This document shows, in pieces, positions 10,025 through 27,519 of a stretch of 64,000 bases of DNA. The first letter of the stretch is position 1. Each line of letters begins with the position of its first letter. The DNA is from Microbacterium profundi. Lineage in GTDB: Bacteria; Actinomycetota; Actinomycetes; Actinomycetales; Microbacteriaceae. The notes under the pieces were generated by a model. It made no database searches. It saw only the letters and a program-made list of their open reading frames with translations, and was not told the origin of the DNA. The stretch is from NCBI RefSeq assembly GCF_000763375.1, contig NZ_JPSY01000001.1:744001-808000 (forward strand), written 5' to 3'. A program made the position numbers and the translations under genes.

Positions 10025-10049
10025 AACGCCCACAAGGGGCGTCGAGCGC

Positions 10050-12907: not shown

Positions 12908-12923
12908 TATAAGGTTGTGGGAG

Positions 12924-13112: not shown

Positions 13113-13196
13113 TCGTGTGAGCCGTTCACCTTCGCCCCTCGTCGAGCATTGCCCGAGGGCCCTTTACTGCGACGCGGAAGACTTGGAGCACTACGA

Positions 13197-13238
13197 ATGA
13201 CGAATCCCGACTCGGTCACGAGGAACGGTTCCGCATGA
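13197..13238 (+). CDS. Possible 13-residue upstream ORF coupled to the lipoprotein gene
   Basis: ATG 13197 is preceded by TTGGAG at 8 nt, encodes MTNPDSVTRNGSA, and its TGA overlaps the next ATG (ATGA at 13235). This is a translational-coupling geometry; function unknown. Confidence 0.35.
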   Translation: MTNPDSVTRNGSA

Positions 13239-13759
13239 TCACCCTCACCCGGATGTCGAGGGGCTTTTTCGCGCTGGCCTGCGTCGTCGGAGCGTCTGCA
13301 GCCTTGGCCGGATGCGCGCCCACCGTAGCCTTGAACCCTGCCGAGAATGCCAACGCCCCCGAGTGTGCAGAGGTCACCGTTCGGTTGCCTGATGCCATCG
13401 AGGAGCTGTCCCTGCGCACTACAGACGCACAGGCCACTGCGGCTTGGGGCGACCCGACGGCGGTCGTCTTCACCTGCGGTCTCACGCCACCTGGTCCGAC
13501 CACCCTGCAGTGCGTCACCATCAACGCTGTCGATTGGATCGTCGACGACACGGATCTGCCCAACCTGCGCCTGACGACGTACGGACGTACGCCTGCTGCA
13601 CAGGCGTACGTCGACACCAGTCGTCTGTCAGCGGATGCCGCACTGGGCGCCCTCGCGTCCGCCGTGCAGAAGCTGCCGAAGACGGGGGCGTGCACAGCAC
13701 CGGACACGGACACGGACACGGACACCTCGACACCGGGTGGAACCGAGGACACGCCGTGA
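13235..13759 (+). CDS. DUF3515-like lipoprotein
   Basis: 174 residues. A lipoprotein signal peptide ends in the lipobox 'ALAGCAP'. The rest fits the actinobacterial DUF3515 pattern: paired Cys residues around 'VVFTCGLTPPGPTTLQCV' and 'WIVDD'. A low-complexity DTDTDTDTST tail follows. It would be anchored to the outer face of the membrane. Its stop overlaps the GTG start of the CopD-CtaG gene (GTGA), which suggests coupling and a role in the copper island. The molecular role of DUF3515 is not known. Confidence 0.75.
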   Translation: MITLTRMSRGFFALACVVGASAALAGCAPTVALNPAENANAPECAEVTVRLPDAIEELSLRTTDAQATAAWGDPTAVVFTCGLTPPGPTTLQCVTINAVDWIVDDTDLPNLRLTTYGRTPAAQAYVDTSRLSADAALGALASAVQKLPKTGACTAPDTDTDTDTSTPGGTEDTP

Positions 13760-15600
13760 AACCAGCGGAACTGCGACTGGCAGGACCGGCGATCCTCATC
13801 GTCGCCGGAGTTCTCACCCTTCTGGCGGGTCTGATGATCGGCGGCGGCGCAGTGCCTCGCCTCATCAGCGACCCGGGGGCGATCGTCCGCTGGGGACTGC
13901 CGACCGCCAAGCTCCTCGTCAATCTGTCCGGCGCAGTGATGGCCGGCTCAGCGATCCTCGCGCTCTTTGCACTGCGTGCGGAGAAGAAAGAGTTCGACGC
14001 TGCGCTGGCTATGACCTCGATCGGCGCCGCGATCCTCACAGTCAGCAGCGGGACGACGGGCTTCCTCACGTTCTTGTCCTCCTTCAATCCGCAGGTGTCG
14101 CTGGGATCGGAGTTCGGTCAGCAGCTGGGCCGATTCCTGCTCGAGACCGAGCTCGGTCAGACCTGGCTGATCACCACCATCGCGGCCGCGACCATCACTC
14201 TTGTGGCGTACGCCTTCCGAGGGTGGGCCGCCGCGCTGATCATCGGACTGCTTTCGCTCGCGGCTCTTGTTCCGATGGCGACACAAGGGCATTCGGGTAC
14301 CCTCGCCAATCACGACGCCGCGGTCATGGCACTCGTCCTCCACATCACAGGCGCGGCCGTGTGGCTCGGAGGCCTTCTCGCCGTGGTCTTCTTGAGGCCC
14401 CTCCTGGAGGAGACCAGGCTTCGGATCATCGTCGAACGGTACTCGACGCTCGCTCTCATCGCGTTCATCGTCGTCACCGTATCGGGCGTCGCCCGCACGC
14501 TGGCATCGATCACCGGCATCGGCGACCTGATCAGCGCCTACGGTGCCGTTCTCGCGATAAAGATCGTTGCTCTTGTCATCCTCGGGGCGATCGGAGTCGC
14601 CCATCGGCGGTGGTTCATCCGGCGCGAGCGCGGCGAAGGCAGTGCGTTCTGGTCGTTCGTGGCGCTGGAGTTGGCGGTGATGGGCTTGGCCAGCGGAGGG
14701 GCCGCCGCTCTGGCGCGCACGCCTTCGCCTGCCGACGCCATCGCTCCCGCGCTCACCACGCCGGCCGAGATCCGCACGGAGGCGCCGTTGCCTGCCGAAC
14801 TCACGCTGGACCGGTGGTTCACCAGCTGGGATGTCGATCTCCTCTGGGCGATCGTCGCCGTCTTCGGCATCTTTTTCTACATCGCGGGAGTGCGGCGGCT
14901 TCGTCGACGAGGTGAAGACTGGACGCCCGCACGCATCATCGCATGGACGGCCGGCATGCTGCTGCTCGTCTGGGTGACGTCCGGGCCCGTTGCGGTGTAT
15001 TCGGACTACCTGCACAGCATGGACGCGCTCGGCCGAGTACTCCTCGCCACCGCGGTGCCGCTGCTTCTGGTACTCGGCGCACCCTATCGACTCGCGCTGT
15101 CCGCCATCACGATCCGTACCGACGGCAGCCGCGGCATCCGCGAATGGCTTCAGGCCGGCGCTCGCTCACGAACGGCGAGCCTTTTCGCGCATCCGCTCGG
15201 TGCCGCATGTCTGTTCGCCGGGTCGCTCTGGGTGACATCGGCGACCGGTGTACTGCGCTGGACCCTCGAAGATCCGTTGGCACACCAGCTGAGGATCGTC
15301 CTGCTCCTGAGCGCCGGCAGTTTCGTCATGATTTCTGTCATACGACCAAGACGCGTCCGCTCGGGCACCTTCCGGACGATTACCGCACTTCTGGTGATGC
15401 TCGCACCTGTCCTCGTGGCCGCCTGGGTTGCGTTCGAGGGCGGCCTCATCGCGGCCGACTGGTTCGGAGCCATGGGGCGCACCTGGGGTCTCGATCCGCT
15501 GGCCGATCAGCGGATGGCTGGCATCATTCTGGCATTCGGCGTCGTCTGCGTCGGCATCGCGGTCGCAGTCGCACACCGGTTCCGAATGAGGCAGCCGTGA
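13756..15600 (+). CDS. Fused CopD / CtaG (caa3) copper membrane protein
   Basis: 614 residues with about 14 predicted hydrophobic segments. The N-terminal half matches CopD-type copper importers ('VLHITGAAVWLGGLLAVVF', 'IVVTVSGVARTLASITG' and a final 'KIVALVILGAIGVAHRRW'). The C-terminal half, from about residue 350, matches the caa3_CtaG family that helps copper insertion into cytochrome oxidase ('YLHSMDALGRVLLATAVPLL', 'DPLADQRMAGIILAFG'). The fusion itself is a known actinobacterial arrangement. It directly precedes copC, so CopC probably hands copper to this protein. Confidence 0.88.
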   Translation: MKPAELRLAGPAILIVAGVLTLLAGLMIGGGAVPRLISDPGAIVRWGLPTAKLLVNLSGAVMAGSAILALFALRAEKKEFDAALAMTSIGAAILTVSSGTTGFLTFLSSFNPQVSLGSEFGQQLGRFLLETELGQTWLITTIAAATITLVAYAFRGWAAALIIGLLSLAALVPMATQGHSGTLANHDAAVMALVLHITGAAVWLGGLLAVVFLRPLLEETRLRIIVERYSTLALIAFIVVTVSGVARTLASITGIGDLISAYGAVLAIKIVALVILGAIGVAHRRWFIRRERGEGSAFWSFVALELAVMGLASGGAAALARTPSPADAIAPALTTPAEIRTEAPLPAELTLDRWFTSWDVDLLWAIVAVFGIFFYIAGVRRLRRRGEDWTPARIIAWTAGMLLLVWVTSGPVAVYSDYLHSMDALGRVLLATAVPLLLVLGAPYRLALSAITIRTDGSRGIREWLQAGARSRTASLFAHPLGAACLFAGSLWVTSATGVLRWTLEDPLAHQLRIVLLLSAGSFVMISVIRPRRVRSGTFRTITALLVMLAPVLVAAWVAFEGGLIAADWFGAMGRTWGLDPLADQRMAGIILAFGVVCVGIAVAVAHRFRMRQP

Positions 15601-15607
15601 CCTATAT

Positions 15608-15661
15608 GGGAAAGGACCCAACTATGACATCTGCGGGAAAGGACCCAGCTATGACATCGAA
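15608..15661 (+). repeat. Tandem 27-bp duplication of a ribosome site and start codon
   Basis: Two 27-bp units, 15608-15634 and 15635-15661, identical at 23 of the first 24 positions. Each contains GGGAAAGGA followed by ATGACATC, so the copC gene has two in-frame ribosome sites and ATGs (15624 and 15651). Confidence 0.85.
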
Positions 15662-16322
15662 ACTCGTCCGCTCACTACGCATCACGGTTACCGCCCTGGC
15701 GACGGCCGTAGCCGCCATTCTCCTGGTCGCCGCGCCGGCCTCCGCGCACGACAACCTCCTCGAATCCGATCCTTCAGCCGGAGCGACGGTCACCAGCCTC
15801 GACGCGGTGTCCATGACATTCAGTGGTGAGCTGATCGACTTTGAGCAGACGAGCTTCGCCCAGGTCCAGGGGCCAGACGGCCCCTACTACGAGACCTCGT
15901 GCTCCACGATCGAGTTCAACGTGCTCACGACGCCCGTCGCACTCGGGGATGCCGGAACCTATACGGTCGTATGGAACGCGGTGTCCAGTGACGGACACCC
16001 GATCTCGGAGAGTTTCACCTTCGAGTACGCCCCGGACGCGAGTACTCAGGCCGCGCTCGGATGGGATCTGCCTGCGTGCGGCAGCGGCGAGGCTCGAGTG
16101 CAGCCAGAAGCGGTGCCCACGGCCACTGCGACACCTCCGGGGAGCGAAGCGATCAGCCCTGCTCCCGCCGAAACCAGCGGTGCGGAATCGAGCGGTGCGC
16201 AATCGAGCACCGGCGGTGATCTCGTCGTCGTTCTCAGCATCGCGGCGGGAGTCATCGTGATCGCCGCGTCGGTCATCGGCATCGTGTGGCTCGGTCGCGC
16301 TCGAAAGCGTCGATCGGAATAG
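15651..16322 (+). CDS. copC: CopC-domain copper resistance protein with C-terminal anchor
   Basis: 223 residues from ATG 15651. A signal peptide ends at 'PASAHDN', placing His at the mature N-terminus, as in CopC/YcnJ proteins where it ligates copper. The CopC beta-sandwich follows ('LLESDPSAGATV', 'YTVVWNAVSSDGHPISESF'), then a Ser/Ala/Pro linker and one membrane helix at about 190-212 with a basic tail. An alternative in-frame start at 15624 adds 9 residues through a tandem duplication. 15651 gives the better signal peptide. It probably binds extracytoplasmic copper for the upstream CopD-CtaG protein. Confidence 0.88.
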   Translation: MTSKLVRSLRITVTALATAVAAILLVAAPASAHDNLLESDPSAGATVTSLDAVSMTFSGELIDFEQTSFAQVQGPDGPYYETSCSTIEFNVLTTPVALGDAGTYTVVWNAVSSDGHPISESFTFEYAPDASTQAALGWDLPACGSGEARVQPEAVPTATATPPGSEAISPAPAETSGAESSGAQSSTGGDLVVVLSIAAGVIVIAASVIGIVWLGRARKRRSE

Positions 16323-16376
16323 TCGCATTCACTCTGCTTGATCATGGACGGGATGCGAAGAGGTAGGATTCACGTG

Positions 16377-16823
16377 ATGCTTCGTCTCCCGATCCGCCGA
16401 TTCGGGGATGTGAAAGATCAGCTATTGATAATGCGCCTCATTACCATCGTTGCGCTGTCGCTGCTTCTATTCGTCGGCATAGCCGCCACCAGCCACAGCG
16501 AGGCTGAAGGCATCACGCCCGCGCAGTCGGCTTCCTCTGGCGTCGTTGATTTCGCAGACAGCGACGATGTCGCCGATCTCGGGTCTGCACAGGTGTCCGC
16601 GACGGCTGATGGATCGAATGCGCTCCTGGGAGCAGCGCTCTGCGTTCTCGGCATCCTGTGCGGATTCACTGCAATCGTCTTGTCGTTGCAGCTCTTGCGG
16701 ACTCCGCGCATGTCTCATGTCGGTTTCACGAAAGGCAGTGCGCTTCATCCGCTGACTGCCCCGGGGACGCGCACGCGAACGACGGGCCCGTCATTGATTC
16801 GACTGAGCGTCTCGCGTACCTGA
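16377..16823 (+). CDS. Small membrane protein with C-x5-C helix, DUF6153-like (copy 2)
   Basis: 148 residues. It has an N-terminal hydrophobic segment ('LITIVALSLLLFVGIAA'), a polar linker, a second helix bearing 'ALCVLGILCG', and a tail ending 'SVSRT'. The architecture and the '-SRT' end resemble actinobacterial DUF6153 proteins; that assignment is from memory and uncertain. The paralogue at 22914 shares both motifs. TAGGAT (16364-16369) lies 7 nt before the ATG, so the gene looks leaderless. A start at ATG 16431 is possible. It lies next to copC and the DsbA-like gene. Confidence 0.65.
   Translation: MLRLPIRRFGDVKDQLLIMRLITIVALSLLLFVGIAATSHSEAEGITPAQSASSGVVDFADSDDVADLGSAQVSATADGSNALLGAALCVLGILCGFTAIVLSLQLLRTPRMSHVGFTKGSALHPLTAPGTRTRTTGPSLIRLSVSRT
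16426..16446. promoter_or_regulatory. Conserved palindrome in copy 2: TGATAATG-N5-CATTACCA
   Basis: Inverted repeat (7/8) centred +59 from ATG 16377, matching the placement in the other copies. Confidence 0.45.
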
Positions 16824-16909
16824 CACCGACGCGCCATCAGTGTTGATGGCGCCTTCCGATGAGCCTGAGCTCGTGCTGTCGACTGTCCCCTCTTGATCTG
16901 GAGTACCCG

Positions 16910-17575
16910 ATGAAGCCTGCTGTAAAGACCACTATCATCACGATCGCCATCGCTGTGGTGCTGATAGTCGGCGCATTGATCTTTGTTCTCGTCAATCAGA
17001 ATCCGAAGGAGCCGCCCGCCTCCGCTGACGGCTCCTCATCCACTCCCGTGGTGCGGGAGAGCTCGCATGTTCTCGATGATGCAGGCGAAGGCGCCGTCAC
17101 TGTGGTCGAGTTCCTTGATTTCGAGTGCGAAGCCTGCGGCGCCTTCTACCCAGTCGTGGAGGACCTACGCAAGAAGTATGACGGCGAGATCACATACGTC
17201 ATCCGCTACTTTCCCGTCCCCGGCCACCTGAACTCGAGGAACGCAGCGCTCGCCGCCGAAGCAGCCGCGCAGCAGGGACGACTCGAAGACATGTACCGCG
17301 AACTGTTCGAGACACAGGCGGAATGGGGCGAAGCACAGGAGTCGCGAGCCGATGTCTTCCGCGGGTTCGCTGAACAACTGGGCCTCGACATGACGGCATA
17401 CGATAAAGCCGTTGCTGATCCCGCCACGACCGCACGCATCGATGTGGACTTCAACGACGGGCAGGCCCTCGGCGTGAACAGCACTCCTACCTTCTTCGTC
17501 GATGGGGAGATGCTTCAGCTGGAGAGGTACGACGATCTGGAGAACGCGATCAACGCCGCGATGGAGGACCGGTGA
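16910..17575 (+). CDS. Membrane-anchored DsbA-like thioredoxin-fold protein
   Basis: 221 residues. One N-terminal membrane helix (about 6-28), then a DsbA/thioredoxin-fold domain with the redox pair in 'FLDFECEACGAFYPV' and the cis-proline loop 'GVNSTPTFFVDG'. Proteins of this type form or isomerise disulfides outside the membrane. GGAG lies 6 nt before ATG 16910. Its last codons overlap the next gene (GTGA), which encodes a flavoprotein, so the two are coupled. It may oxidise cysteines of copper proteins encoded nearby. Confidence 0.87.
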   Translation: MKPAVKTTIITIAIAVVLIVGALIFVLVNQNPKEPPASADGSSSTPVVRESSHVLDDAGEGAVTVVEFLDFECEACGAFYPVVEDLRKKYDGEITYVIRYFPVPGHLNSRNAALAAEAAAQQGRLEDMYRELFETQAEWGEAQESRADVFRGFAEQLGLDMTAYDKAVADPATTARIDVDFNDGQALGVNSTPTFFVDGEMLQLERYDDLENAINAAMEDR

Positions 17576-18588
17576 CGGTTCCAGGATTGTCACACCGCCG
17601 CGTGATCATCGTCGGCGCAGGGCAGGCCGGACTGGCAGTCGCGGACGCACTCAGGAACGGCGGCTTGGTCCCGCAGAGCGACTTCACCGTCATCGACGCG
17701 AACATGAACGGCCAACGATCCTGGGCTTCACGTTGGCATTCCATGGCGCTTCTCAGTGATGCTCACCACAGTTCGATCGCCCGCCGACCACTTCCAGGCG
17801 ATCAGTCCCGACGCCCGCGTGCGGATGAGATGCAGGACTACCTCGCGTCGGTCGAGGCGTCCCTCGGTATCGCCGTCATGTGGGGGATGCGCGCCACAGG
17901 TGTGGGCCCGTACGGCAGGGGTTCGTCACTCCTGCTGTCCACGAACGAAGGGCCGGTGCAGACCCGCAATGTAGTGTGCGCGACGGGTTCGTCGTCCCGG
18001 CCCTGGGTACCGTCCTGGGCGGCAGACCTCATCGTGCCGGGCGTGGCGATCCACAGCGCCGATTACCAGTTCCCTCGACAGATCCCTGCCGGCGACGTAC
18101 TGATAATCGGCGGCGGAGACAGCGGAGCGCAGATCGCGAGGGAGCTCGCACCCTCGCACACAGTGACGCTATCGGTCCGACACCGCGGACGCGACCCGAA
18201 ACCCGGAAAGGGTGCCGGCCGCTGGCCATGGTCTGCACACCCGCGTTCGAGACTCCCGAACGAGGATCAAGAGGCACAGCTGCAACAACACGGAGTGTCG
18301 ATAGTTCCGCCCGCACGAGGTGCCGACGGCGGACAGATCAACTTCGAGGATGGCGCGCGGGTGAAACCTCGGTCTGTGATCTTCGCCACCGGATACCTGC
18401 CGGCCGACGATTGGCTCCCGCAGGTCGTCCGGGACCCGGTGTCCCGTCGCCGGCGACACGGCACGACCTCGATACCGGGTTTGTTCGTGGCGGGGTTCCC
18501 GAAATACAGTACACCTGGCGCAGACAGCTTCATCGGCGTGCGGCGAGACGCCGCCTCGATCGCGCGACGCATCCTGAACCGCCCCTGA
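17572..18588 (+). CDS. FAD/NAD(P)-dependent flavoprotein oxidoreductase
   Basis: 338 residues with two dinucleotide-binding motifs: 'VIIVGAGQAGLAVADAL' for FAD near the N-terminus and 'VLIIGGGDSGAQIAREL' for NAD(P)H in the middle. It also has 'VIFATGYLP' near the end. The pattern is that of flavin monooxygenase/thioredoxin-reductase-like enzymes. No CxxC redox pair typical of thioredoxin reductase is visible. Translational coupling to the DsbA-like gene suggests it supplies or drains electrons for that protein, but the substrate is not known. Confidence 0.8.
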   Translation: MTVPGLSHRRVIIVGAGQAGLAVADALRNGGLVPQSDFTVIDANMNGQRSWASRWHSMALLSDAHHSSIARRPLPGDQSRRPRADEMQDYLASVEASLGIAVMWGMRATGVGPYGRGSSLLLSTNEGPVQTRNVVCATGSSSRPWVPSWAADLIVPGVAIHSADYQFPRQIPAGDVLIIGGGDSGAQIARELAPSHTVTLSVRHRGRDPKPGKGAGRWPWSAHPRSRLPNEDQEAQLQQHGVSIVPPARGADGGQINFEDGARVKPRSVIFATGYLPADDWLPQVVRDPVSRRRRHGTTSIPGLFVAGFPKYSTPGADSFIGVRRDAASIARRILNRP

Positions 18589-18605
18589 GGAAAGAGGAGA
18601 AGCTC

Positions 18606-18742: not shown

Positions 18743-18793
18743 CGATCTCGAAGCACGCCCGTCACCTGCAGCCTCATTCAAAGGAGAGCCGAC

Positions 18794-18892: not shown

Positions 18893-19272
18893 TTCCGGCC
18901 GCCCCGTCCCGGCGGAAGTCCACGCTTCTCGCGGTCATCGTGGTCGCCGCATTCTGTGCCATCGCTCCATTCGTCGGGGCCGAGTCGGCGACTGCGTCTT
19001 CCGACTCGTACGCGAGCTCCACGCCGGATCCCACGGATACCCCGTCATCGTCGCCCACCCCTGGCGAGAGCACCGACGAGCCTCACCAGGAACGACTCGA
19101 TGAGCAAGGTGCCGACCGCGGTGATCTCGGTCTCTTTGGTGTCATGCTCATTGGCGGACTCGGATTCGTGCTCGCCGCCGGAGCAGTAGGCGTCTCCATG
19201 GTCGCCCGCGAACGGCGACGCAGAGATCGCGCGGAGACCGCGTCGAAGAAGGAGACCCCTGATGCTGGATGA
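18889..19272 (+). CDS. Small secreted/anchored protein of unknown function
   Basis: 127 residues if started at TTG 18889. It has an N-terminal signal-like helix ('STLLAVIVVAAFCAIAPFVG'), a Ser/Thr/Pro/Asp-rich extracytoplasmic stretch, and a second membrane helix ('LFGVMLIGGLGFVLAAGAVG') with a very basic cytoplasmic end (RERRRRDR). The start codon is uncertain because the frame continues upstream. TTG overlaps the stop of the short upstream ORF. It overlaps the lspA start by 11 bp, so it belongs to the same operon. Confidence 0.6.
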   Translation: MIPAAPSRRKSTLLAVIVVAAFCAIAPFVGAESATASSDSYASSTPDPTDTPSSSPTPGESTDEPHQERLDEQGADRGDLGLFGVMLIGGLGFVLAAGAVGVSMVARERRRRDRAETASKKETPDAG

Positions 19273-19798
19273 CAAGACGCCGAGATATGCCTTCGCCTTC
19301 ATCGCGGCGGGGCTGGTCGTGCTCGTCGACCAGGCGAGCAAGGCCGCCGCGCTTGCCGGTCTCAGTGAGACGGAGCGCATCCCGCTACTGGGCGACTTCC
19401 TCGGCCTGCAGCTGGCGTTCAACCCCGGTGCGATCCTGTCCTTCGGTTCGGAGGCGACGTGGGCGTTGACCCTCGTCGGTGTGGGAGCGATCGCCGTGCT
19501 GTTCGTCGCAGCAAAGCGCTCCCGCACCATCTGGTGGGCGACCGGAATCGGATTCATTCTCGGCGGCGCACTGGGAAACGTACTGGATCGGTTGTTTTCG
19601 CCTCCCGGATTCGGGCGTGGACATGTGACGGATTTCCTCGCATACGGAAACTGGTTCATCGGCAATCTTGCCGACGTGGCTCTCGCGATCGGGGCCGTCA
19701 TCCTGGCTCTCGATCTCTGGATCCGCAGCCGTGCGGCTTCGCAGGAGGCGGTCGCCGCGTCGGTACCCGCTGATGATGTTCAGGAGGGTCGATCGTGA
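19262..19798 (+). CDS. lspA: Signal peptidase II (LspA), island copy 1
   Basis: 178 residues with four membrane helices. Catalytic Asp residues lie in 'GGALGNVLDRLF' and 'FIGNLADVALA', and the N-terminal 'VVLVDQASKAAAL' is also conserved. LspA cleaves the signal peptide of diacylglyceryl-prolipoproteins. The start ATG 19262 has AAGGAGA upstream and overlaps the previous gene. Its stop overlaps the GTG of the next gene. It sits in the same transcription unit as CtaG and Lnt and near several lipoprotein genes, so it is a dedicated accessory copy rather than the house-keeping enzyme (inference). Confidence 0.93.
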   Translation: MLDDKTPRYAFAFIAAGLVVLVDQASKAAALAGLSETERIPLLGDFLGLQLAFNPGAILSFGSEATWALTLVGVGAIAVLFVAAKRSRTIWWATGIGFILGGALGNVLDRLFSPPGFGRGHVTDFLAYGNWFIGNLADVALAIGAVILALDLWIRSRAASQEAVAASVPADDVQEGRS

Positions 19799-20130
19799 CT
19801 GAGAAGAAGCGCACTCCTTCGGCCTATCAGCGCAATGCGCTCGCGCCCGGCTTGCTTGCCGCAGCAGTATTGTTCGTTGCGCCCGCGCTGCTGACGGGAA
19901 GCTGGTCGTCCGTTGTTCTGTTCGTCGCCTCGATCCTCGCTGTGATCGTCGGGTGGTTCGCGTGGCAAGCGCGACAGTGGTGGTGGCTTCCGGTGTTCGC
20001 CGCCGTCGCCATCATCTGGAACCCGGTGTTCCCGTTGCCTTTCGAGGGCCCGGTCTGGATCGGTGCGCAGCCTGCCGCAGCGGTGTTGTTCCTTGTTGCC
20101 GGCGGATTGATCAAGGTCAAACGCGTATGA
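19795..20130 (+). CDS. Small membrane protein, DUF6804-like
   Basis: 111 residues with three to four hydrophobic segments and the distinctive central motif 'IIWNPVFPLPFEGPVWIG', typical of a small actinobacterial/cyanobacterial membrane family (DUF6804, by recollection). GTG 19795 overlaps the lspA stop by 4 bp. Function unknown. Its place between lspA and ctaG is the only clue. Confidence 0.7.
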   Translation: MTEKKRTPSAYQRNALAPGLLAAAVLFVAPALLTGSWSSVVLFVASILAVIVGWFAWQARQWWWLPVFAAVAIIWNPVFPLPFEGPVWIGAQPAAAVLFLVAGGLIKVKRV

Positions 20131-20252
20131 CGAGCCTTCGCCGCCCCATCGGTGCCATCAGCCGCAATTGTGGGGGGCGCACTGCCCTGCGCACCGCGGG
20201 GGCTGGCGGCCCCAGGCATGTCATCGGTCACCACGAGCAATCGGGTCGATGA
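20127..20252 (+). CDS. Possible 41-residue coupled ORF
   Basis: ATG 20127 overlaps the upstream stop (ATGA), and its own TGA overlaps the ctaG ATG at 20249. The product is basic with no recognisable fold (begins MTSLRRPIGAIS). It may serve only to carry ribosomes to ctaG. Confidence 0.3.
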   Translation: MTSLRRPIGAISRNCGGRTALRTAGAGGPRHVIGHHEQSGR

Positions 20253-21187
20253 ACACCTGGATCCCTGACACTCCTCCGACACTCGCGGCCTTCTTCAGCT
20301 TGCTGCCGGGGCCGTTCCCCCTGCTGCCGCTCATTGCGACGGTACTGGCAGTCGGATATCTGGTGGGAGCAATCCGATTGTGGAGACAGGGTCGTCGCTG
20401 GCCGGTGTGGCGCACTGTCAGCTTCCTCGTGGGATGCGGTGCCCTCGCAGCGACGACAGGCCTGGGCGTGGAGGCCTACGGGTATGCGCTGATGTCGGTG
20501 TTCATGTTCCAGCAGCTCACCTTGATGATGGCCATCCCGCCGCTTCTCGTGCTCGGCTCCCCCGGAACGCTGCTCCTGCGTGCCACCGCGCACCATGGAC
20601 CGGGGAAGGCCGTCCTCCGCGCCGCTCATTGGGGTCTTCGCTCTGCGGCCGCCCGATGGGTGCTCAGCCCCTGGCTGGCGTTGCCGATCTATCTTGCGTC
20701 GTTCTACGGTCTGTATCTGGCAGGATTCGCCGACCGCATCCTCGCCGTCCCCGGTGGGCACATGGCTATGGAGGTCCTGTTCCTCCTTGCCGGGATCGTC
20801 TTCACCATCCCGATACTCAGCTCCGACCCGCTCCCGATGCGAATCAGCCATGGTGGACGCGCCCTCGACGTGTTCGCCGAAGCCGCACTTCACGCCTTCT
20901 TCGGAGTGTTCCTGATGATGGCCACCACCATGCTCGTCACGCAGTTCGTCGCCCCGACCGAAGCGCTCGGCATCGACCCGCTCGAAGATCAACGGGTGGC
21001 CGGCGGTCTGGCATGGTCGTACGGGGAAGCGCCCACATTGTTTATGCTCGTTTATGTGATGCATCGTTGGTTTCGCGACGACACGGCCCGCGCCGCGGCT
21101 GACGACCGATTCACCGACGCCCACGGCACGAGCGAGCTGGACGCGTATAACGCTTACCTTTCGAAGCTGCGTGAGAAGGACATCTGA
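20249..21187 (+). CDS. CtaG-family cytochrome c oxidase assembly protein
   Basis: 312 residues with about seven membrane helices of the caa3_CtaG family. Landmarks are 'YGYALMSVFMFQQLTLMMA', 'PPLLVLGSPGTLLLRA' and the C-terminal 'DPLEDQRVAGGLAWSYGEAP', the same 'D-x-Q-x-xG' segment seen in the CopD-CtaG fusion and in the 26599 protein. Members assist copper-site assembly of terminal oxidases. The tail 'ELDAYNAYLSKLRE' is shared with the minus-strand paralogue. It is co-directional with lspA and lnt. Confidence 0.85.
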   Translation: MNTWIPDTPPTLAAFFSLLPGPFPLLPLIATVLAVGYLVGAIRLWRQGRRWPVWRTVSFLVGCGALAATTGLGVEAYGYALMSVFMFQQLTLMMAIPPLLVLGSPGTLLLRATAHHGPGKAVLRAAHWGLRSAAARWVLSPWLALPIYLASFYGLYLAGFADRILAVPGGHMAMEVLFLLAGIVFTIPILSSDPLPMRISHGGRALDVFAEAALHAFFGVFLMMATTMLVTQFVAPTEALGIDPLEDQRVAGGLAWSYGEAPTLFMLVYVMHRWFRDDTARAAADDRFTDAHGTSELDAYNAYLSKLREKDI

Positions 21188-21190
21188 GAT

Positions 21191-22804
21191 ATGGCCACGA
21201 AACCACCCCGAACTCCGGCGATGACGACGAGCACCGCGGAGCGTCGCACCGTCATACCCCGCAGCACACCGATGCTTCCGATGCGTGCAGCGCTGCCCGT
21301 TGCCATCATCGCCGGCGTAGCACTCGATCTCGCCACTCCCGACGTCGGCTGGTGGCCGCTCGCCTTCATCAGCGTCATCCTCGCTCTGGCGACGCTGGTG
21401 GGTCGAAGCATCGGCGGCGCATTGATGGTGGGACTCGTTTTCGGTATCAGTTTCTACGTCCTCCACCTCGCTTGGGTCGGCCAGTTCCTCGGCCCGATAC
21501 CCCGAATTGCCTTGTCTGGCCTGCAGGCGCTGTTCCTGGGTCTCGGTGCGATTCCGATTGCGCTCGCATACCGGTGGACGAGTCAGTTCCGTCGCCGAGG
21601 TATCGGGCAGTTGATCGTGGTGCCGCTCATGATCGCGGGGCTGTGGACGGCCCGCGAAGTGGCGATGGGTTCGTGGCCGTACGGCGGATTCCCCTGGGTG
21701 CGTCTGGGGATGACGCAGGTGAACGGGCCCTTCCCTGAGGTCGCTTCCTGGATCGGAGTCACCGGGCTGTCGTTCCTCGTCGCGTTCGCTTCCGCCGCGC
21801 TCCTGCAATGGCTCCGCGCCGGTGTCCGATTCCTCCCGGGAGCGCTTCCCGCCGGCATCGTGATCGTCGTGCTTGCCTTGACACCTCAGTTTCCGACCGC
21901 GAGCGCCGGGACCTTCACCGTTGGGTGGGTGCAGGGCAACGGCCCTTCCGGGTACTTCGATGACAAAGAACCCGGAGACATTCTCGACGCTCACTCCACC
22001 GCCTCAGAGTCGATCATCGGACAGCCGATGGACTTGCTCGTGTGGCCCGAGGGCGCCGTCGACTCCGACCCGTTCCGTGAACGGGGCACCGCGGCGGAGC
22101 TGGATCGTATCGTCGCGTCGGCTGGAGCTCCGCTTCTGGCCAACGCAGCCACCACGCGAGGGGAGAACACGTTCAACACAACGATGCTGTGGACAGCCGA
22201 CCCAGCCGAGCGGCAGATACACGACAAGGTCCACCCGGTGCCGTTCGGGGAGTATGTGCCGGATCGCTGGTTCTACGAGAAGCTCGCGCCAGACCTGGTC
22301 GGGCTCATCCGACGCGAATACACCCCCGGCACGATCGCCCCTGTCGTGAGTGTGGGATCGGTGCGTGTCGGGCTCGCCATCTGTTTCGACGTCATCTTCG
22401 ACGATGTGATCCGGGACGGCGCACAGGCGGGAGCGCAGCTGTTCGTGTTCCAGACCAACAACGCAGATTTCCGCGACACCGATGAGAACCTGCAGCAACT
22501 CGCATTCGCTCGCATGCGTGCGATTGAGACCGGACGGGCCGTGGTCAACGTCTCCACGGTGGGCACCAGCCAGGTCATCAGTCCAGCCGGCGTACCGATC
22601 GAAACGATCGACGTCGATCAAGCCGATGCCAAGGTCACCACCGTTCCGCTGCGTACCGGGCTGACCCCTGGAATCGTCCTCGGGCCGTGGCTGTCCTGGC
22701 TCATCACCGTGGCGCCGTTCGTGCTCCTCGTCATCACCGCAATAGCATCCCGCCGTGGTTCCTCCCCCACCCTTCGCCTTCGTCGACGGCCGACAACGCC
22801 TTGA
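21191..22804 (+). CDS. lnt: Apolipoprotein N-acyltransferase (Lnt)
   Basis: 537 residues. About seven N-terminal membrane helices precede a nitrilase-fold periplasmic domain whose catalytic triad is visible: Glu in 'LVWPEGAVD', Lys in 'HDKVHPVPFGEYVPDR' and Cys in 'VGLAICFDVIFDD'. A final membrane helix follows. Lnt adds the third acyl chain to lipoproteins. It lies 3 bp after ctaG. With LspA in the same unit, the island carries two of the three lipoprotein-maturation steps; Lgt is absent. Confidence 0.93.
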   Translation: MATKPPRTPAMTTSTAERRTVIPRSTPMLPMRAALPVAIIAGVALDLATPDVGWWPLAFISVILALATLVGRSIGGALMVGLVFGISFYVLHLAWVGQFLGPIPRIALSGLQALFLGLGAIPIALAYRWTSQFRRRGIGQLIVVPLMIAGLWTAREVAMGSWPYGGFPWVRLGMTQVNGPFPEVASWIGVTGLSFLVAFASAALLQWLRAGVRFLPGALPAGIVIVVLALTPQFPTASAGTFTVGWVQGNGPSGYFDDKEPGDILDAHSTASESIIGQPMDLLVWPEGAVDSDPFRERGTAAELDRIVASAGAPLLANAATTRGENTFNTTMLWTADPAERQIHDKVHPVPFGEYVPDRWFYEKLAPDLVGLIRREYTPGTIAPVVSVGSVRVGLAICFDVIFDDVIRDGAQAGAQLFVFQTNNADFRDTDENLQQLAFARMRAIETGRAVVNVSTVGTSQVISPAGVPIETIDVDQADAKVTTVPLRTGLTPGIVLGPWLSWLITVAPFVLLVITAIASRRGSSPTLRLRRRPTTP

Positions 22805-22913
22805 CCGCATCCATCCGTCGCCGGCGAGTATCGGATGCTCACCGGAACCTTCCGATATGCGACAGCTCAGATTGTCCGAATCCGAGCCGAACGTCGCGGG
22901 TATGCTGGTACTG

Positions 22914-23378
22914 ATGGCTTCGCTGGTTCGCTCACACCTTCTCGGGAGGTCGTCTGAGCGCGTGCTGATAACGAGTCTCGTTATCGTCTTGTTCTCGACG
23001 TTGCTCTTCGCGATCGGCGTAGCCGGCGCCACCTATGAGAACGCAGACGGTGCCTCTGTCTCGCGTTCGAGCGTCCAATCCCCCAGCCTGCAGACGAGTG
23101 ACAGAACCGATATCGGCGCAGTCCTGTCCGCCGGCCCCCGAGCTGCAACCGTTTTGAACGAGTCACCCGGGTCCACCACCCCCGTCAGCGCTGTGCTGTG
23201 CGTACTCGGGCTCATGTGCGGGCTGGTCTTCACGACCCTCTGGCGCGGTCTGTGCCGACGACCTCCACTCCGTGATCGCGGGTCAGCACGAGTCCTCTTG
23301 CCGTCTGTTCCGGCACCTTTCTTCCGGCCGCGTGAGACGGCTCTCTCCCTGACGCAGCTGAGCTTGTCGCGAACCTGA
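22914..23378 (+). CDS. Small membrane protein with C-x5-C helix, DUF6153-like (copy 3)
   Basis: 154 residues. An N-terminal hydrophobic segment ('LITSLVIVLFSTLLFAIGVA'), a polar Ser/Thr-rich region, a second helix with 'VLCVLGLMCG', and a tail ending 'SLSRT' all match the product of 16377. TATGCT (22901-22906) stands 7 nt before the ATG, so the transcript should be leaderless. GTG 22962 with GGGAGG upstream is an alternative. The gene precedes the TlpA-CcdA pair. The two spaced Cys in a membrane helix could bind metal or form a redox pair (speculation). Confidence 0.65.
   Translation: MASLVRSHLLGRSSERVLITSLVIVLFSTLLFAIGVAGATYENADGASVSRSSVQSPSLQTSDRTDIGAVLSAGPRAATVLNESPGSTTPVSAVLCVLGLMCGLVFTTLWRGLCRRPPLRDRGSARVLLPSVPAPFFRPRETALSLTQLSLSRT
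22967..22985. promoter_or_regulatory. Conserved palindrome in copy 3: GATAACGA-GTC-TCGTTATC
   Basis: Perfect 8-bp arms centred +62 from ATG 22914. This is the best example of the element shared by all three copies. Confidence 0.55.
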
Positions 23379-23564
23379 TTCCCACGCAGCCTCCCTCATC
23401 GGTTCGCAACGAGCAGGTGAGCTTCATCCGGGCTGCGTCGATCGCACGGGGCTGATCCGGCAACCGCAGGCGTCTGTTCTCACGCGCCTGGAGCCTCCAG
23501 AACCGTTCCGACTGCGCCCAACTCCTTTTCGACCAAGACTGCTACACAAGCAAGGACCCACATC

Positions 23565-24251
23565 ATGAGCCCTGAGCGGACAAGGCGCCTCGTCGCCGAT
23601 CGCACGCCCACCGACCGCATCCACTCCCCTGTCTCGCGGCGACGTCGAGCTCTTGCCACCCGCGTCGGTCTTTCCAGCGTCGCTGTGATGCTCATCGCCG
23701 GCTTCCTCGCCGGGTGCTCGAACGATTCGCTCACGGAGCAATACCGCGCGGGCGACGACAAGGGTTACATCGCCGGTGACTTCCAAGTCGTCGAGTTGCC
23801 GAAAGAGGAGCGTAGCGCGCCGGTTGTCTTCGACGGCGTCACGGAAACGGGAGAAGTCGTCTCCAGCGACGACTATCGGGGCGAGGTGCTCGTGGTGAAC
23901 TTCTGGTACGCCGCCTGCGCGCCGTGCATCGTCGAAGCGCCCATGCTCGAGCAGGTCTGGAAGGACTATCAGGACGACGGCGTGGCCTTCCTCGGCGTGA
24001 ACACCTACGACCAGCCTGCGACCGCACTGTCATTCGCCCGAGACAACGAGATCACATATCCGAGTGTCATCGACGTGAACGACGGGAATGTCAAGCTCGC
24101 CTTCGCTCAGGTCACCCCGATTCAAGCCACCCCGACGACACTGGTCATCGATCGCAGCGGGCGGGTCGCCGCGCGGATCATCGGCCAGTTGGCGGGCGCC
24201 TCCATCCTGTCCACCCTGGTCGCCGACGCACTCGAGGAGAACCCATCGTGA
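23565..24251 (+). CDS. TlpA/ResA-like thioredoxin lipoprotein
   Basis: 228 residues. A long basic N-terminus leads into a hydrophobic segment and lipobox 'AGFLAGCSN', so the mature protein should be lipid-anchored. The AhpC/TlpA-type thioredoxin fold follows, with the redox pair in 'NFWYAACAPCIVEAP' and the cis-Pro 'TPIQATPTTLVID'. TlpA-like proteins reduce disulfides in apocytochromes or copper-site proteins. Coupled by GTGA overlap to ccdA, which would keep it reduced. AAGGA lies 9 nt before the ATG. It is a plausible substrate of the island LspA and Lnt. Confidence 0.9.
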   Translation: MSPERTRRLVADRTPTDRIHSPVSRRRRALATRVGLSSVAVMLIAGFLAGCSNDSLTEQYRAGDDKGYIAGDFQVVELPKEERSAPVVFDGVTETGEVVSSDDYRGEVLVVNFWYAACAPCIVEAPMLEQVWKDYQDDGVAFLGVNTYDQPATALSFARDNEITYPSVIDVNDGNVKLAFAQVTPIQATPTTLVIDRSGRVAARIIGQLAGASILSTLVADALEENPS

Positions 24252-25012
24252 ATCCTGGATCGATGATCGTCGACGGTGCCCTGTGGCTGTCGATTCCGAT
24301 CGCGATCCTTGCGGGGCTGGTGTCCTTCGTCTCACCGTGCGTCCTGCCACTCGTGCCCGGGTACCTCGGGTATCTCGGCAGTGCCACGTCCGGCCCGACC
24401 CAAGGGCCAAGGGCAACCGGACCGTTCGCACATGAGCGGGCGAGACTGCTGCTGGGGGTGACACTCTTCATCGCCGGGTTCACCGTGGTGTTCGTCGCCG
24501 TGACGATTCTGGGCGGCGCGTTCGGATTCGCCCTGCTGCAGTACGCCAACGTCCTCACGCGGGTGTTCGGTGTCGTCATCATCGTTCTCGGACTCGTATT
24601 CCTCGGCCTTTTCGGCATGGCTCAACGCACTGTCCGCCCCCGCACACATGGCCGGGCCGGGTTGGTCGGAGCGCCGCTGCTCGGATTCGCGCTCGGCGTC
24701 GGGTGGACTCCGTGCATCGGGCCGACCCTGGCTGCGATCATCTCGATGTCCTGGAATCTCGGCGACCCGGCGCGGGCGGGATTGCTAGGACTCGCTTATT
24801 CCCTCGGCCTGGGCATCCCATTCCTCATCCTTGCGGCCGGCTGGGGCTGGGCTTCCCGGTCCGTGGCATTTCTTCGTCGGCATGTGCGCCTCCTGAACAT
24901 CATCGGCGGGTCGATGCTCATCGCGCTGGGGTTGCTCATGGTCACGGGACTTTGGTCGGCGCTGATGTCACAGCTCCAGCAGTTGGTGATCAATGTTCCC
25001 CTCCCGCTCTGA
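24248..25012 (+). CDS. ccdA: CcdA-type thiol-disulfide membrane transporter
   Basis: 254 residues with six hydrophobic helices of the DsbD/CcdA family. The two electron-carrying Cys are in 'FVSPCVLPLVPGYLGYLG' and 'GVGWTPCIGPTLAAI'. The protein carries electrons from cytosolic thioredoxin to external thioredoxin-like proteins. The GTG start overlaps the stop of the TlpA-like lipoprotein gene, so the two form one reducing pathway. Confidence 0.92.
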   Translation: MNPGSMIVDGALWLSIPIAILAGLVSFVSPCVLPLVPGYLGYLGSATSGPTQGPRATGPFAHERARLLLGVTLFIAGFTVVFVAVTILGGAFGFALLQYANVLTRVFGVVIIVLGLVFLGLFGMAQRTVRPRTHGRAGLVGAPLLGFALGVGWTPCIGPTLAAIISMSWNLGDPARAGLLGLAYSLGLGIPFLILAAGWGWASRSVAFLRRHVRLLNIIGGSMLIALGLLMVTGLWSALMSQLQQLVINVPLPL

Positions 25013-25077
25013 CACCGGCGCTGACCGCTGACATCACAACCGATGGCTATCGGGGCGCGGTCGGCGCAGCCGATGGC

Positions 25078-26436
25078 TCACACGTAGATTCCCCGGTCTT
25101 CCATGAATCTGATCGGGTTGGTGTACCCGCCGTTGATGTAGACCTCGAAGTGCAAGTGGCAACCGAAGGAGCGTCCGGTGTCGCCCGCGTACGCGATGAC
25201 CTGGCCGGAACTGACCCATTGACCGCTGCGGACGATGATGCCGCCCGACTGTATGTGCGCATACCCGGTGCTGACTCCTCCGCCATGCTGGATACGGACG
25301 TAGTTGCCGTAGTTTCCATTGGGACCGGCGTAGTCGACGGTGCCGGAGTTCGCCGCGTAGATGGCTGCTCCACAACCATTGGCGAGATCGGCGCCGTAGT
25401 GGTAGCTCGACGAGCAGCCCTGGGAACCACACATCGGAGTCCGTGGCCCGTAGCTCGAGCTGCGAGCGCCGCCGTGAGGGCGGACCCAGCCGCCGGATCC
25501 GCTTGCCCCACCTCCCCCGCCGTTGCCGCCGCCGTTCGCGGCGGCTTCAGCGGCTTCGCGTTCGCGGCGCGCCTTCTCCTCCGCCGCACGGGCCGCAACG
25601 CCGGCCTGGTAGCCGGCGACGGTCTGAGTGGTGGTGTCCTTCAGCGCAGCGAGTTGAGCCTTCATCGTTTCGAGATTCGCGGCCTGCTCATCGAGCGCGG
25701 TCTGCGCCGCCTCCGCCGCCTGCTGTGCCACGACCATCTTCTGCTCAGCGACTTTCTGCAGGCGGTCGCGCTCGTCACGGGCAACATTGGCTTGGTCGGT
25801 CAATGCCTGGGCGGCATTGCGCGCCGAAACTGCGTCATCGTAGATCGACTGGTTGTATTCGAGAAGCTTGTCCATCGTGCCCAAGCGCGAAAGCAGCTCG
25901 TCGGCGTCGGCGGCTGAGTCTGCGAAGAAGAGCTTGAGCGCGGTATCGTCACCGCCGTTTCGGTAGATCTGCGCGGCGACCTGACCGGCCTTGCGTGCTG
26001 ATTCATCGGCAATCTGCGACTGCTCGTCGGCTTGTGCCTGCAGGCTCTCGGCTTCAGTGATCGCGGCGAAATACTGCTGCTGTGCGGTATAGAACTCATC
26101 AGATGCCGTCTTCGCGGCAGCTTGCGTCTCTGCGACCTTCTGCGCCAACGACTGGATCAGGCCCTCGATGCGGGTGATCTCGGCGGTCTTCGCGGCCTCG
26201 TTGTTCTTGGCGCGTTGCACATCGTCCCAGCTGGGATACGACGCGGCGTACGCGGCGGAGACACCAGAGCCGACGCCGAACGCGGCGAGGGTGGCTATGC
26301 CGAGGATTCCGATACCGAAGGCTCCACGCCGGCTGACATTCTTCTTCCAGAAGGAGTCGCGTTCAGCAGGTGTGGGCGCGCAGCCGCACTCTTCGGCTGC
26401 CGCGACTGCCGCAGCATCAGTCGACTTCTCGTTCAC
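25078..26436 (-). CDS. Exported M23 metallopeptidase with coiled coil
   Basis: 452 residues. The N-terminus has a cytoplasmic CGC motif and a Tat-like signal ('NVSRRGAFGIGILG...'). A long Ala/Gln/Glu-rich coiled coil spans about residues 75-290, followed by a Gly-rich linker and an M23 domain. Zn ligands are visible in 'YHYGADLANG' and 'GCHLHFEVYING'. Such proteins cleave peptidoglycan cross-links or activate other hydrolases. The start GTG 26436 has GAGAGGA upstream. It is convergent with ccdA. Confidence 0.9.
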   Translation of the reverse strand: MNEKSTDAAAVAAAEECGCAPTPAERDSFWKKNVSRRGAFGIGILGIATLAAFGVGSGVSAAYAASYPSWDDVQRAKNNEAAKTAEITRIEGLIQSLAQKVAETQAAAKTASDEFYTAQQQYFAAITEAESLQAQADEQSQIADESARKAGQVAAQIYRNGGDDTALKLFFADSAADADELLSRLGTMDKLLEYNQSIYDDAVSARNAAQALTDQANVARDERDRLQKVAEQKMVVAQQAAEAAQTALDEQAANLETMKAQLAALKDTTTQTVAGYQAGVAARAAEEKARREREAAEAAANGGGNGGGGGASGSGGWVRPHGGARSSSYGPRTPMCGSQGCSSSYHYGADLANGCGAAIYAANSGTVDYAGPNGNYGNYVRIQHGGGVSTGYAHIQSGGIIVRSGQWVSSGQVIAYAGDTGRSFGCHLHFEVYINGGYTNPIRFMEDRGIYV

Positions 26437-26598
26437 TTGGTCCTCTCTGATGGTCGCTCAGACATGGGGCGGAGCGGAGGTCGGTTGCGCCCGTGCTGGC
26501 GTTTCTATCGTGCATTGAAACTTCCGCGATACGGGTTCGGCTCGCCACTGCACTCGACATTCCCAGTGGCGTCCACCTGTGTGTGCGAGGTCACGCCA

Positions 26599-27519
26599 TC
26601 AATGCCGGTTCTTTTGATCGATCCGCTCAAGGTAGGCGTTGTACTCGTCCAGTTCTGCTTCCTCCCGCGATTCATTCATGCGGGCCTGGCGCCGATCGCG
26701 CGAGTGCCAGCGGGAGAGGCAGACGATGAGTACGACCAGGAGCGGAAGCTCGGCGTAAGTCCACAGCAGCATTCCGGCGACCGCTTGGTCGTATGCGGGA
26801 TCCACTGCTTGCTGAGGGGTCGAGTAGGCGGCGAACAGGGGTTTGCCCGCTCGGATCAGGATGAGTCCGAGGATTGCGTGAATCTGTATCTCGACGAAGA
26901 TGTCGATCAGCCGTGCCGGGAACGACGGCGCCCGCGGGAGCGGATCCGAGGACCAGAGCGGCACTGCTGCGACAATGCCTGCCACAACGAAGAACGCGAG
27001 GAGAAGGGCGGCTCCGATCGGGGTGGCCATCACAGCGCTGATGGCATCCGTCAGATAGAGAGCCGGGAATACTGCGAGCGCGATCGCGATGGGCATGAAG
27101 GGGTGCAGGAGCATGCGCGTCCAGCGGGACCGGAGTCCAGCGTGAGCGGCTTTCAGGATGAGCAACCCGATTCGGCGGTGCGGTGTGCTGCGCAACAGGA
27201 GGCGTCCTGGTGAGCCCACGATGAGAAGCGGTGGGATGACGGTGATGGCGGTGATCTGCTGGAACATCAGTGCGGTCAGCGAAACACTCGCGTACCGGTT
27301 CACGCCGAAGGTCGCGATGACGAACATCACGGCACACCCCAAGACGAAGGAGAGCGTCCTGGGGACTGACCATCTCCTGCGGTGCGACCACAGCCAGATT
27401 GCACCACGGAGGTACCACACGAACAGCAATATCGCCGCCACCGCGACGATCGGAGACCCGCCGGTGGGGTCGAATCTGAACCAGTCGGGGAAGAATGGAA
27501 GGATAGCGTCAGTCGACAC
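26599..27519 (-). CDS. CtaG-family cytochrome c oxidase assembly protein (second)
   Basis: 306 residues, seven hydrophobic helices, paralogous to 20249-21187: 'VSLTALMFQQITAITVIPPL', 'LIVGSPGRLLLRS', 'DQAVAGMLLWTYAELP' and the tail 'ELDEYNAYLERIDQ'. The start GTG 27519 has GAGGAGG upstream. With the CopD-CtaG fusion this makes three CtaG domains in 14 kb. Predicted role: copper delivery to a terminal oxidase. Confidence 0.83.
   Translation of the reverse strand: MSTDAILPFFPDWFRFDPTGGSPIVAVAAILLFVWYLRGAIWLWSHRRRWSVPRTLSFVLGCAVMFVIATFGVNRYASVSLTALMFQQITAITVIPPLLIVGSPGRLLLRSTPHRRIGLLILKAAHAGLRSRWTRMLLHPFMPIAIALAVFPALYLTDAISAVMATPIGAALLLAFFVVAGIVAAVPLWSSDPLPRAPSFPARLIDIFVEIQIHAILGLILIRAGKPLFAAYSTPQQAVDPAYDQAVAGMLLWTYAELPLLVVLIVCLSRWHSRDRRQARMNESREEAELDEYNAYLERIDQKNRH

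Follow-up and report, generated by a model that had tools for sequence, protein, structure and literature searches.

Genes for lipoprotein maturation recur with thiol-redox and oxidase-assembly genes at actinobacterial metal-resistance loci

Why should genes for signal peptidase II (LspA) and apolipoprotein N-acyltransferase (Lnt) stand among metal pumps, copper-handling proteins, thiol oxidoreductases and oxidase-assembly factors? The question is raised by a block of genes in Microbacterium profundi that begins at position 13235 of a 64,000-nucleotide stretch (the window; assembly GCF_000763375.1, contig NZ_JPSY01000001.1, positions 744,001 to 808,000), whose contig accounts for 2.2 Mb of the 3.37-Mb genome. 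The block (Table 1) is more than a chance gathering, as other genomes, and plasmids too, carry the same gene set. We lean towards reading it as a mobile, reshuffling actinobacterial metal-tolerance kit that backs up extracytoplasmic steps attacked by metal, in which spare lipoprotein-anchoring and oxidase-assembly genes probably keep these steps going when toxic metal blocks the normal ones. The steps that would be backed up are lipoprotein maturation (LspA and Lnt, with Lgt in some kits), thiol redox (DsbA, TlpA, CcdA), cytochrome c maturation (ResB and CcsB, present in most close kits and absent here) and copper delivery to a heme-copper oxidase (CopC, CopD-CtaG and CtaG, with CtaD in mycobacterial-type kits).

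Loci for comparison were picked by alignment of the stand-alone CtaG in named genomes, so LspA and Lnt played no part in the choice. We examined the best 80 of at least 576 relatives, 30 of them close and 50 distant, and scored gene presence by tblastn with window and plasmid proteins; some of the contigs are short. LspA was found at 28 of the 30 close loci, Lnt at 28 and both at 27, together with DsbA, CopC and DUF6804 (26 each), TlpA, CcdA and the flavoprotein (24 each), ResB (23), CcsB (21) and a P-type ATPase (20). The initial annotation had joined copper handling, thiol redox and lipoprotein maturation in one module, with the loading of a terminal oxidase as its purpose; a conserved, mobile unit that combines oxidase assembly with the handling of metal, thiol redox and the maturation of lipoproteins is borne out, and the objection that the gene set might not be conserved across genomes fails. 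The close loci lacking the LspA and Lnt pair are L027, on a 5.7-kb contig, L040 and L045. At the distant loci we found CtaD and TlpA 16 times each, DsbA 10 times, LspA 4 times, Lnt 3 times and LspA with Lnt twice.

Gene order is partly kept within Microbacterium and reshuffled outside it. In the 27 loci drawn, the typical order is DsbA-flavoprotein-CopC-LspA-DUF6804-TlpA-CcdA-ResB-CtaG-Lnt-M23-CcsB-CopD/CtaG. An order led by DUF3515, with neither ResB nor CcsB, occurs in the window and in Microbacterium aerolatum, the nearest named relative at this locus (CtaG 94% identical). Over the 21 kb of M. aerolatum compared, it is colinear with window positions 13031-25020 at about 87-95% DNA identity and lacks 25021-26278 (most of the M23 peptidase gene) and 27538-28812 (LspA#2 and most of CadD). 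Because they are missing at the same place in this relative, the M23 gene and the LspA#2-CadD pair are separable segments.

The lipoprotein-maturation genes of these loci form lineages of their own. A quick maximum-likelihood tree of Lnt (69 rows, two own duplicates having been dropped) places the 45 module rows from Microbacterium-type loci, without exception, in one branch, with a Shimodaira-Hasegawa-like approximate likelihood ratio (SH-aLRT) support of 99, apart from 16 housekeeping rows; this separation is conservative because the housekeeping rows come almost entirely from the 30 top matches by similarity to the query. In the LspA tree, built from 69 of 70 rows (L059 was dropped as too short), a branch with support of 97 splits 30 housekeeping from 39 module rows, the housekeeping rows having been labelled by best score rather than from neighbourhoods checked one by one. 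The CadD-linked LspAs group on the module side of this branch. The Glu-Lys-Cys triad is present in all 69 aligned Lnt rows, the window's included, and the island Lnt passes the TIGR00546 cut-off, which places it in the Lnt family and predicts N-acylation. The catalytic Asp pair of LspA is kept in 39 of 40 module rows, the remaining row being gapped. We take these Lnt and LspA residues to have the catalytic roles known for the two families. Both LspAs of the window are over the PF01252 cut-off, but the predicted activity of LspA#2 is less sure because in this protein alone the Asn of the GN..DR motif is replaced by His. The idea that module Lnt is a metal-hardened, Cys-poor form was rejected: over the first 520 residues, the mean is 2.4 Cys in 53 module rows versus 1.4 in 16 housekeeping rows.

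Extra copies of these genes were then followed across 59 same-genus genomes, a sample in which kinship is uncorrected, so that p-values are not to be taken at face value. Lnt is present at least twice in 19 of the 59, and 17 of these 19 also have at least two LspAs, versus 6 of the other 40. In 16 of the 59 genomes lnt lies within 15 kb of lspA; this is true of none of the 34 genomes with one copy of each. Nearness to a P-type ATPase, set at 20 kb, was scored with the 150 of 326 ATPase matches listed, and is therefore undercounted for all families; an Lgt in the M. profundi genome that lies 2 kb from an ATPase, for example, was scored as not near among the matches listed. On this measure, no single-copy genome has its Lnt (0/40), LspA (0/36) or Lgt (0/45) near a listed ATPase, and a copy near one is found in 15/19, 17/23 and 8/14 of the multi-copy genomes, respectively. 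Before counting, we removed five Lgt fragments and eight weak Lnt fragments, none of the latter above 21.6 bits. Of the removed Lgt fragments, one in G034 lies 6.6 kb from an ATPase and another would turn G044 multi-copy; if all five are retained, the Lgt figures become 0/44 for single-copy and 9/15 for multi-copy genomes. As a control, signal peptidase I gave 110 matches (11 below cut-off), none near a listed ATPase, and 37 genomes had more than one match.

These counts bear on two other explanations. The first is accretion, whereby independent metal-resistance and envelope genes would gather on mobile elements, LspA and Lnt sharing no function with the rest. The reshuffling of order between families fits this idea, as do segments such as LspA#2-CadD that come and go, but content is steadier than order, extra Lnt and extra LspA co-occur, and signal peptidase I, despite its multiple matches, is never near a listed ATPase. 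We consider accretion very improbable. The second is that the extra LspA confers resistance to LspA inhibitors such as globomycin. LspA paralogues are a self-resistance route in producers of globomycin-like antibiotics, and the island LspA is strongly diverged; this explanation would leave Lnt, Lgt, CadD and the association with ATPases unaccounted for, and we give it almost no weight.

The kit is also found on plasmids. Lnt matches occur in at least 279 plasmid records, mostly distant and many of them proteobacterial. We examined 12 actinobacterial records, and 11 of these are metal-resistance regions; the twelfth (H3) was rejected as a kit, since its lnt stands beside RbpA and TatAC and looks housekeeping. 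By annotation, 8 of the 12 carry LspA, 9 carry TlpA or CcdA and 8 carry an oxidase-assembly protein. Five have ctaD (Rhodococcus pyridinivorans, R. fascians, R. aetherivorans, Gordonia pKB1 and Pseudonocardia), and one, from Cnuibacter, has lgt. A SURF1 gene adjoins the R. pyridinivorans kit, and on Rhodococcus and Gordonia plasmids VKOR stands beside a thioredoxin gene. Identical Lnt stretches in differently named species and on a plasmid of M. sediminis point to recent transfer, and named Microbacterium records share identical Lnt alleles with the same-genus genomes.

Some records differ from the Microbacterium pattern. A Microbacterium-type kit appears in a record of Planococcus sp. APC 4015 (Bacillota; L028), which is probably mislabelled or a mixed assembly. 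In mycobacterial-type kits (L015, L017, L166, L169), CtaD stands with a CopY/BlaI repressor and an M56 peptidase, which we take to be BlaR1-like; an M56 homologue is present at 11 of the 80 CtaG loci. This combination suggests that an oxidase subunit carried on plasmids is served by an unusual sensor. On Kitasatospora pKP058 (L168), Lnt overlaps the end of a gene annotated as a cytochrome c oxidase assembly protein, and its neighbours are carbonic anhydrases, CDF transporters, CcsB and CopY/M56.

The M. profundi genome has three LspA, two Lnt, four Lgt and five CtaG matches (one partial), with one COX1 match and one COX2 match. The third LspA, which by eye we place between DivIVA-like and RluD-like genes, and the second Lnt (on C3, 54% identical to the island Lnt and, by eye, downstream of a helicase-like gene) are presumed to be the housekeeping copies. 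One Lgt lies within what appears by eye to be a trp/glutamate-synthase stretch. Of the three outside this apparent trp locus, two have a P-type ATPase no more than about 5 kb away. One of the three adjoins DUF1232, DUF305, a P-type ATPase and two ArsR genes. Another (C1:1245761) directly follows a CsoR-like stretch (33% identity), has rhodanese and TauE genes nearby and is perhaps linked to sulfur rather than copper. The last, a diverged Lgt, stands in a copper cluster (C3:50000-66000) with CsoR, a CopA-like ATPase, DUF305, two DUF6153-like proteins that score below cut-off and a multicopper oxidase. With three of the four Lgt matches outside the apparent trp locus, the island may or may not borrow the housekeeping Lgt, as the initial annotation had it do.

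We hypothesize that the kit, presumably induced by metal, acts as follows. Under a load of Cu or Cd, the pumps would reduce cytoplasmic metal, TlpA and CcdA would hold CuA and other cysteines reduced, and the CopC, CopD and CtaG proteins would channel copper to the oxidase. The extra LspA and Lnt would then drive prolipoproteins to the triacylated form, with CtaC, TlpA and other lipoproteins anchored, and triacylation would leave no free N-terminal amine as a copper ligand. Several papers describe the same steps as targets or requirements. In Escherichia coli, copper blocks lipoprotein maturation in a way resembling Lgt depletion, and the copper locus cutE is lnt (PMC6538781); PMC7387801, citing that paper, instead describes a build-up of diacyl lipoprotein, and we follow the Lgt-depletion-like wording of PMC6538781. 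Copper is reported to interact with a diacyl lipopeptide at its N-terminus (PMC8275575), and the factors given for biogenesis of caa3 oxidase in Bacillus subtilis include LspA and Lgt with CtaG, CcdA and ResABC (PMC9145763). Beside these reports (PMC6538781, PMC8275575, PMC8689077, PMC7387801, PMC9145763), the kit reads, by analogy, like a second set of parts for those steps. This suggests that envelope biogenesis, and not efflux alone, is a target guarded by metal-resistance elements. As LspA and Lnt, and sometimes Lgt, are mobile together with metal pumps, the role of N-acylation in copper tolerance can be tested by gene deletion.

We favour the oxidase as a main beneficiary of this backup under metal stress. 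The chief rival is a copper shield of the Lit2 kind, in which LspA and Lnt would cap the free N-terminal amines of all surface lipoproteins against copper and the redox and oxidase genes would be passengers. Its precedents are lit2 with lgt2 on copper elements of Listeria and Enterococcus and the reported interaction of copper with diacyl lipopeptide (PMC8275575). In the M. profundi genome itself, the cluster of CsoR, Cu-type ATPase, DUF305 and multicopper oxidase holds an accessory Lgt, and no oxidase-assembly homologue was found there. We nonetheless consider the shield unlikely: in most close kits the redox and oxidase genes accompany LspA and Lnt and are interspersed with them, all transcribed the same way, and LspA#2 and plasmid LspAs pair with CadD, from which it follows that cadmium is involved too. 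The LspA-CadD pairing recurs in Mycolicibacterium rufum, Cellulosimicrobium and M. schleiferi (L038).

Backup of metal-attacked steps could also go further than we have proposed above. Tentatively, the kits may amount to a transmissible replacement biogenesis line, in which a full, separately evolved Lgt/LspA/Lnt pathway spread across sister metal islands of one genome would join redox, heme-c and oxidase parts, be switched on by metal, sustain the building of CtaC and the bc1-aa3 chain while metal blocks the housekeeping line, and cap lipoprotein N-termini against copper; this we regard as possible, though not the likelier outcome. A second kit type was seen by tblastn in same-genus genome G042 (C6:4000-40000), with CsoR-CopA, Lnt, flavoprotein, CcdA-TlpA-CcsB-ResB, Lgt, M23, a CopA-like ATPase and a multicopper oxidase. 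Its predicted gene content supports a copper role and joins Lnt with Lgt.

Which lipoproteins might such enzymes serve? The initial annotation held that the island matures its own lipoproteins, TlpA and DUF3515, so as to load a terminal oxidase. A lipobox heuristic applied to kit copies called as lipoproteins 42 of 49 TlpA (of which at least one, L043, looks like a wrong match), 0 of 42 DsbA and 0 of 42 CopC. The chromosomal CtaC, the genome's only COX2 match, has a signal sequence ending in VALAGC, a lipobox, and is thus a predicted lipoprotein. The oxidase half of the earlier claim has gained from this, and from CtaD at 16 of the 80 CtaG loci and SURF1 beside a plasmid kit. That the island enzymes serve only the island lipoproteins is quite improbable to us, even with the TlpA lipoboxes and the CtaD of related kits in its favour. 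The lipoboxes look normal, DUF3515 has a homologue at 8 of the 30 close loci, and CtaC is an equally good client. TlpA also occurs at distant loci with neither LspA nor Lnt within the fetched stretch, and therefore housekeeping enzymes can presumably process it.

Several observations weigh against a dedicated metal-stress backup. L040 has CtaG without any kit gene, L045 has LspA without Lnt, and 30 of the 50 distant loci have none of LspA, Lnt, TlpA, CcdA and CtaD. No CtaC homologue was found in the loci searched. Four of the 41 plasmid LspA records listed were examined, and although two are kits, two were rejected as such: those of Streptomyces sp. NBC_01321, where an ArsR/ACR3 pair lies about 7 kb away, and of Rhodococcus sp. 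PD04. The association counts ignore shared ancestry and use the listed ATPase matches alone, and the presumed housekeeping Lnt of M. profundi (C3) is itself 11.8 kb from a P-type ATPase, so nearness alone is no mark of an accessory copy. By tblastn, the window holds no homologue of CsoR or CopY, and its system II cytochrome c maturation set is incomplete, with CcdA and TlpA but neither ResB nor CcsB. No operator or upstream motif common to the relatives was found, although window positions 12740-13260 hold four palindromes; ahead of DUF3515 in the three relatives checked there were none.

Metal elements that carry one or another gene of the lipoprotein pathway have been described before; here LspA and Lnt are packaged with redox and oxidase-assembly genes in Actinomycetota. 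Among the titles and abstract openings listed in searches of the open-licence literature, we found no paper on LspA with Lnt in a metal element, nor on this actinobacterial kit. One close parallel is lit2 with lgt2 on copper-induced mobile elements of Listeria and Enterococcus (PMC8275575, PMC8689077, PMC7387801), where extra lipoprotein-modifying enzymes likewise ride on a metal-resistance mobile element and the product is an N-acylated lipoprotein, as is predicted here. Lit2, in contrast, moves an acyl chain within the molecule, whereas our kit has a true Lnt-family enzyme with LspA, carries redox and oxidase-assembly genes and belongs to Actinomycetota; no Lit-family match was found among the window proteins scanned with Pfam and NCBIfam profiles, so the likeness to lit2 is by analogy alone. 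The pbr lead operon of Cupriavidus places the LspA-family PbrC beside a metal P-type ATPase (PMC3431237), and pbrC2 stands beside cadA (PMC11647585). In its described content, however, pbr has LspA alone (fused to PbrB on pMOL30) and no Lnt, CtaG or TlpA/CcdA. The regulators found in the window, moreover, are TetR and ArsR rather than a MerR-type PbrR, and no PAP2 phosphatase was found among the proteins scanned. Relative to the passages describing lit2/lgt2 and pbrC, the kit is a fuller variant.

Listeria has a second LspA (LspB) in the cadAC cadmium operon, which resembles LspA#2-CadD but is a single Firmicute gene not known to be joined by Lnt. CtiP and CopC of Corynebacterium glutamicum match the CopD-CtaG fusion and CopC of the block, but are described as single chromosomal genes tied to copper starvation (PMC9145763, PMC13344008), and here they are extra copies on a metal island. 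The CYT module, a cluster on Antarctic Arthrobacter plasmids, holds two CcdA and a DsbA-family protein along with a COG3682 regulator; its authors tie it to sulfur oxidation, and LspA, Lnt and CtaG are not named in the passages describing it (PMC6305408). Genomic islands of Brevibacterium are actinobacterial metal islands with lspA, resA, cmtR, czcD and copB, given as a table listing in which no function is proposed and lnt and ctaG are not among the genes named (PMC12467314).

Within the window, Pfam and NCBIfam profiles placed DUF3515, CopD-CtaG, CopC, the DsbA-like protein, LspA, CtaG, Lnt, TlpA and CcdA where the initial annotation had them. Its many GTGA overlaps are five in the sequence (13756, 15597, 17572, 19795 and 24248). 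The contents of the proposed island, 13235 to 27519, thus stand, and its extent does not, since the block runs on through LspA#2, CadD, a P-type ATPase (presumably of Cd/Zn type, to judge from its relatives), ArsR and a second P-type ATPase. The first gene of the block is DUF3515, not CopC, and a TetR gene lies upstream. Lgt is indeed missing from the window by tblastn, and that, with the lack of a CsoR or CopY homologue, leaves the description "self-contained" unsupported. With the queries used, tblastn likewise gave no CtaD, VKOR, CtaC, SURF1, multicopper oxidase or M56 homologue in the window. All three CtaG proteins are over the PF09678 cut-off (161-227 bits), and the two checked score below the TIGR02737 equivalog cut-off. 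A Cox11-type CtaG was rejected, as none of the window proteins scanned had a PF04442 match listed at E up to 0.01, and the family is Caa3_CtaG. DsbA (CEAC) and the flavoprotein do overlap, but their coupling as redox partners is not supported: the flavoprotein contains a single Cys, lacks a CxxC and is ArsO-like, below the NCBIfam cut-off. VKOR is found elsewhere in the genome.

Table 1. Features of the block and its surroundings (window positions)
Feature	Position	Strand	Evidence and remarks
P-type ATPase with HMA domain	3930-6170		
DUF3515 lipoprotein, lipobox ALAGC	13235..13759	+	PF12028 50.4 bits; homologue in 8/30 close CtaG loci
CopD-CtaG fusion, CtiP-like	13756..15600	+	PF05425 48 bits and PF09678 161 bits; GTGA overlap with DUF3515
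CopC-domain protein, C-terminal hydrophobic segment	15612..16322	+	PF04234 66.3 bits; start uncertain, GTGA-overlap start at 15597 possible
Small membrane protein, two Cys six apart in hydrophobic stretch	16338..16823	+	Start uncertain; weak matches in 17/80 CtaG loci
DsbA-like membrane-anchored oxidoreductase, CEAC	16910..17575	+	PF13462 (Thioredoxin_4) 88.5 bits, DSBA 60 bits; CxxC in 43/44 relatives
ArsO-like FAD/NAD(P) flavoprotein, no CxxC	17572..18588	+	Pyr_redox_3 74 bits; GTGA overlap with DsbA
Small protein with hydrophobic segment	18625..19272	+	DUF7269 below cut-off; start uncertain
LspA#1, signal peptidase II	19262..19798	+	PF01252 98.3 bits; TIGR00077 78 vs cut-off 74; catalytic Asp pair kept
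DUF6804 small membrane protein	19795..20130	+	PF20619; GTGA overlap; homologue in 26/30 close loci
Stand-alone Caa3_CtaG	20249..21187	+	PF09678 227 bits
Lnt, apolipoprotein N-acyltransferase	21191..22804	+	LNT_N 101 bits; TIGR00546 239 vs cut-off 132.9; E-K-C triad kept
Small membrane protein, C-terminal end resembling 16338-16823	22755..23378	+	No Pfam match; true start probably ~22900
TlpA/ResA-like thioredoxin lipoprotein, LAGC lipobox, CAPC	23565..24251	+	PF00578 (AhpC-TSA) 70.6 bits
CcdA	24248..25012	+	PF02683 (DsbD_TM) 30 bits; GTGA overlap with TlpA
M23 peptidase	25078..26436	-	PF01551; 25021-26278 absent at same place in M. aerolatum
Third CtaG	26599..27519	-	PF09678 165 bits
LspA#2, adjoins CadD	27755..28294	-	PF01252 83.8 bits; Asn of GN..DR motif is His
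CadD-type cadmium transporter	28291..28896	-	PF03596 135.7 bits
P-type ATPase	28896..30866	-	PF00122 156 bits
ArsR-family regulator	30809..31168	-	PF01022
ArsR gene beside second P-type ATPase	31234-31605	-	
Second P-type ATPase	31646..33670	+	PF00122 174 bits

Base composition was not used as a sign of transfer: the content of guanine plus cytosine (GC) is 64.3% in 13000-28900, 68.2% in 1-12000 and 65.6% in 38600-64000, and given the last value the difference is weak. A perfect palindrome seen by eye at about 22967-22985 was rejected as an operator because it falls within a coding hydrophobic segment. The two small membrane proteins (16338-16823 and 22755-23378) each have two Cys in one hydrophobic stretch, have no Pfam match and end in a common C-terminal LS.SRT; in other kits, a similar LS.SRT-type end stands before DsbA and is followed by a GC-rich, hairpin-like stretch.

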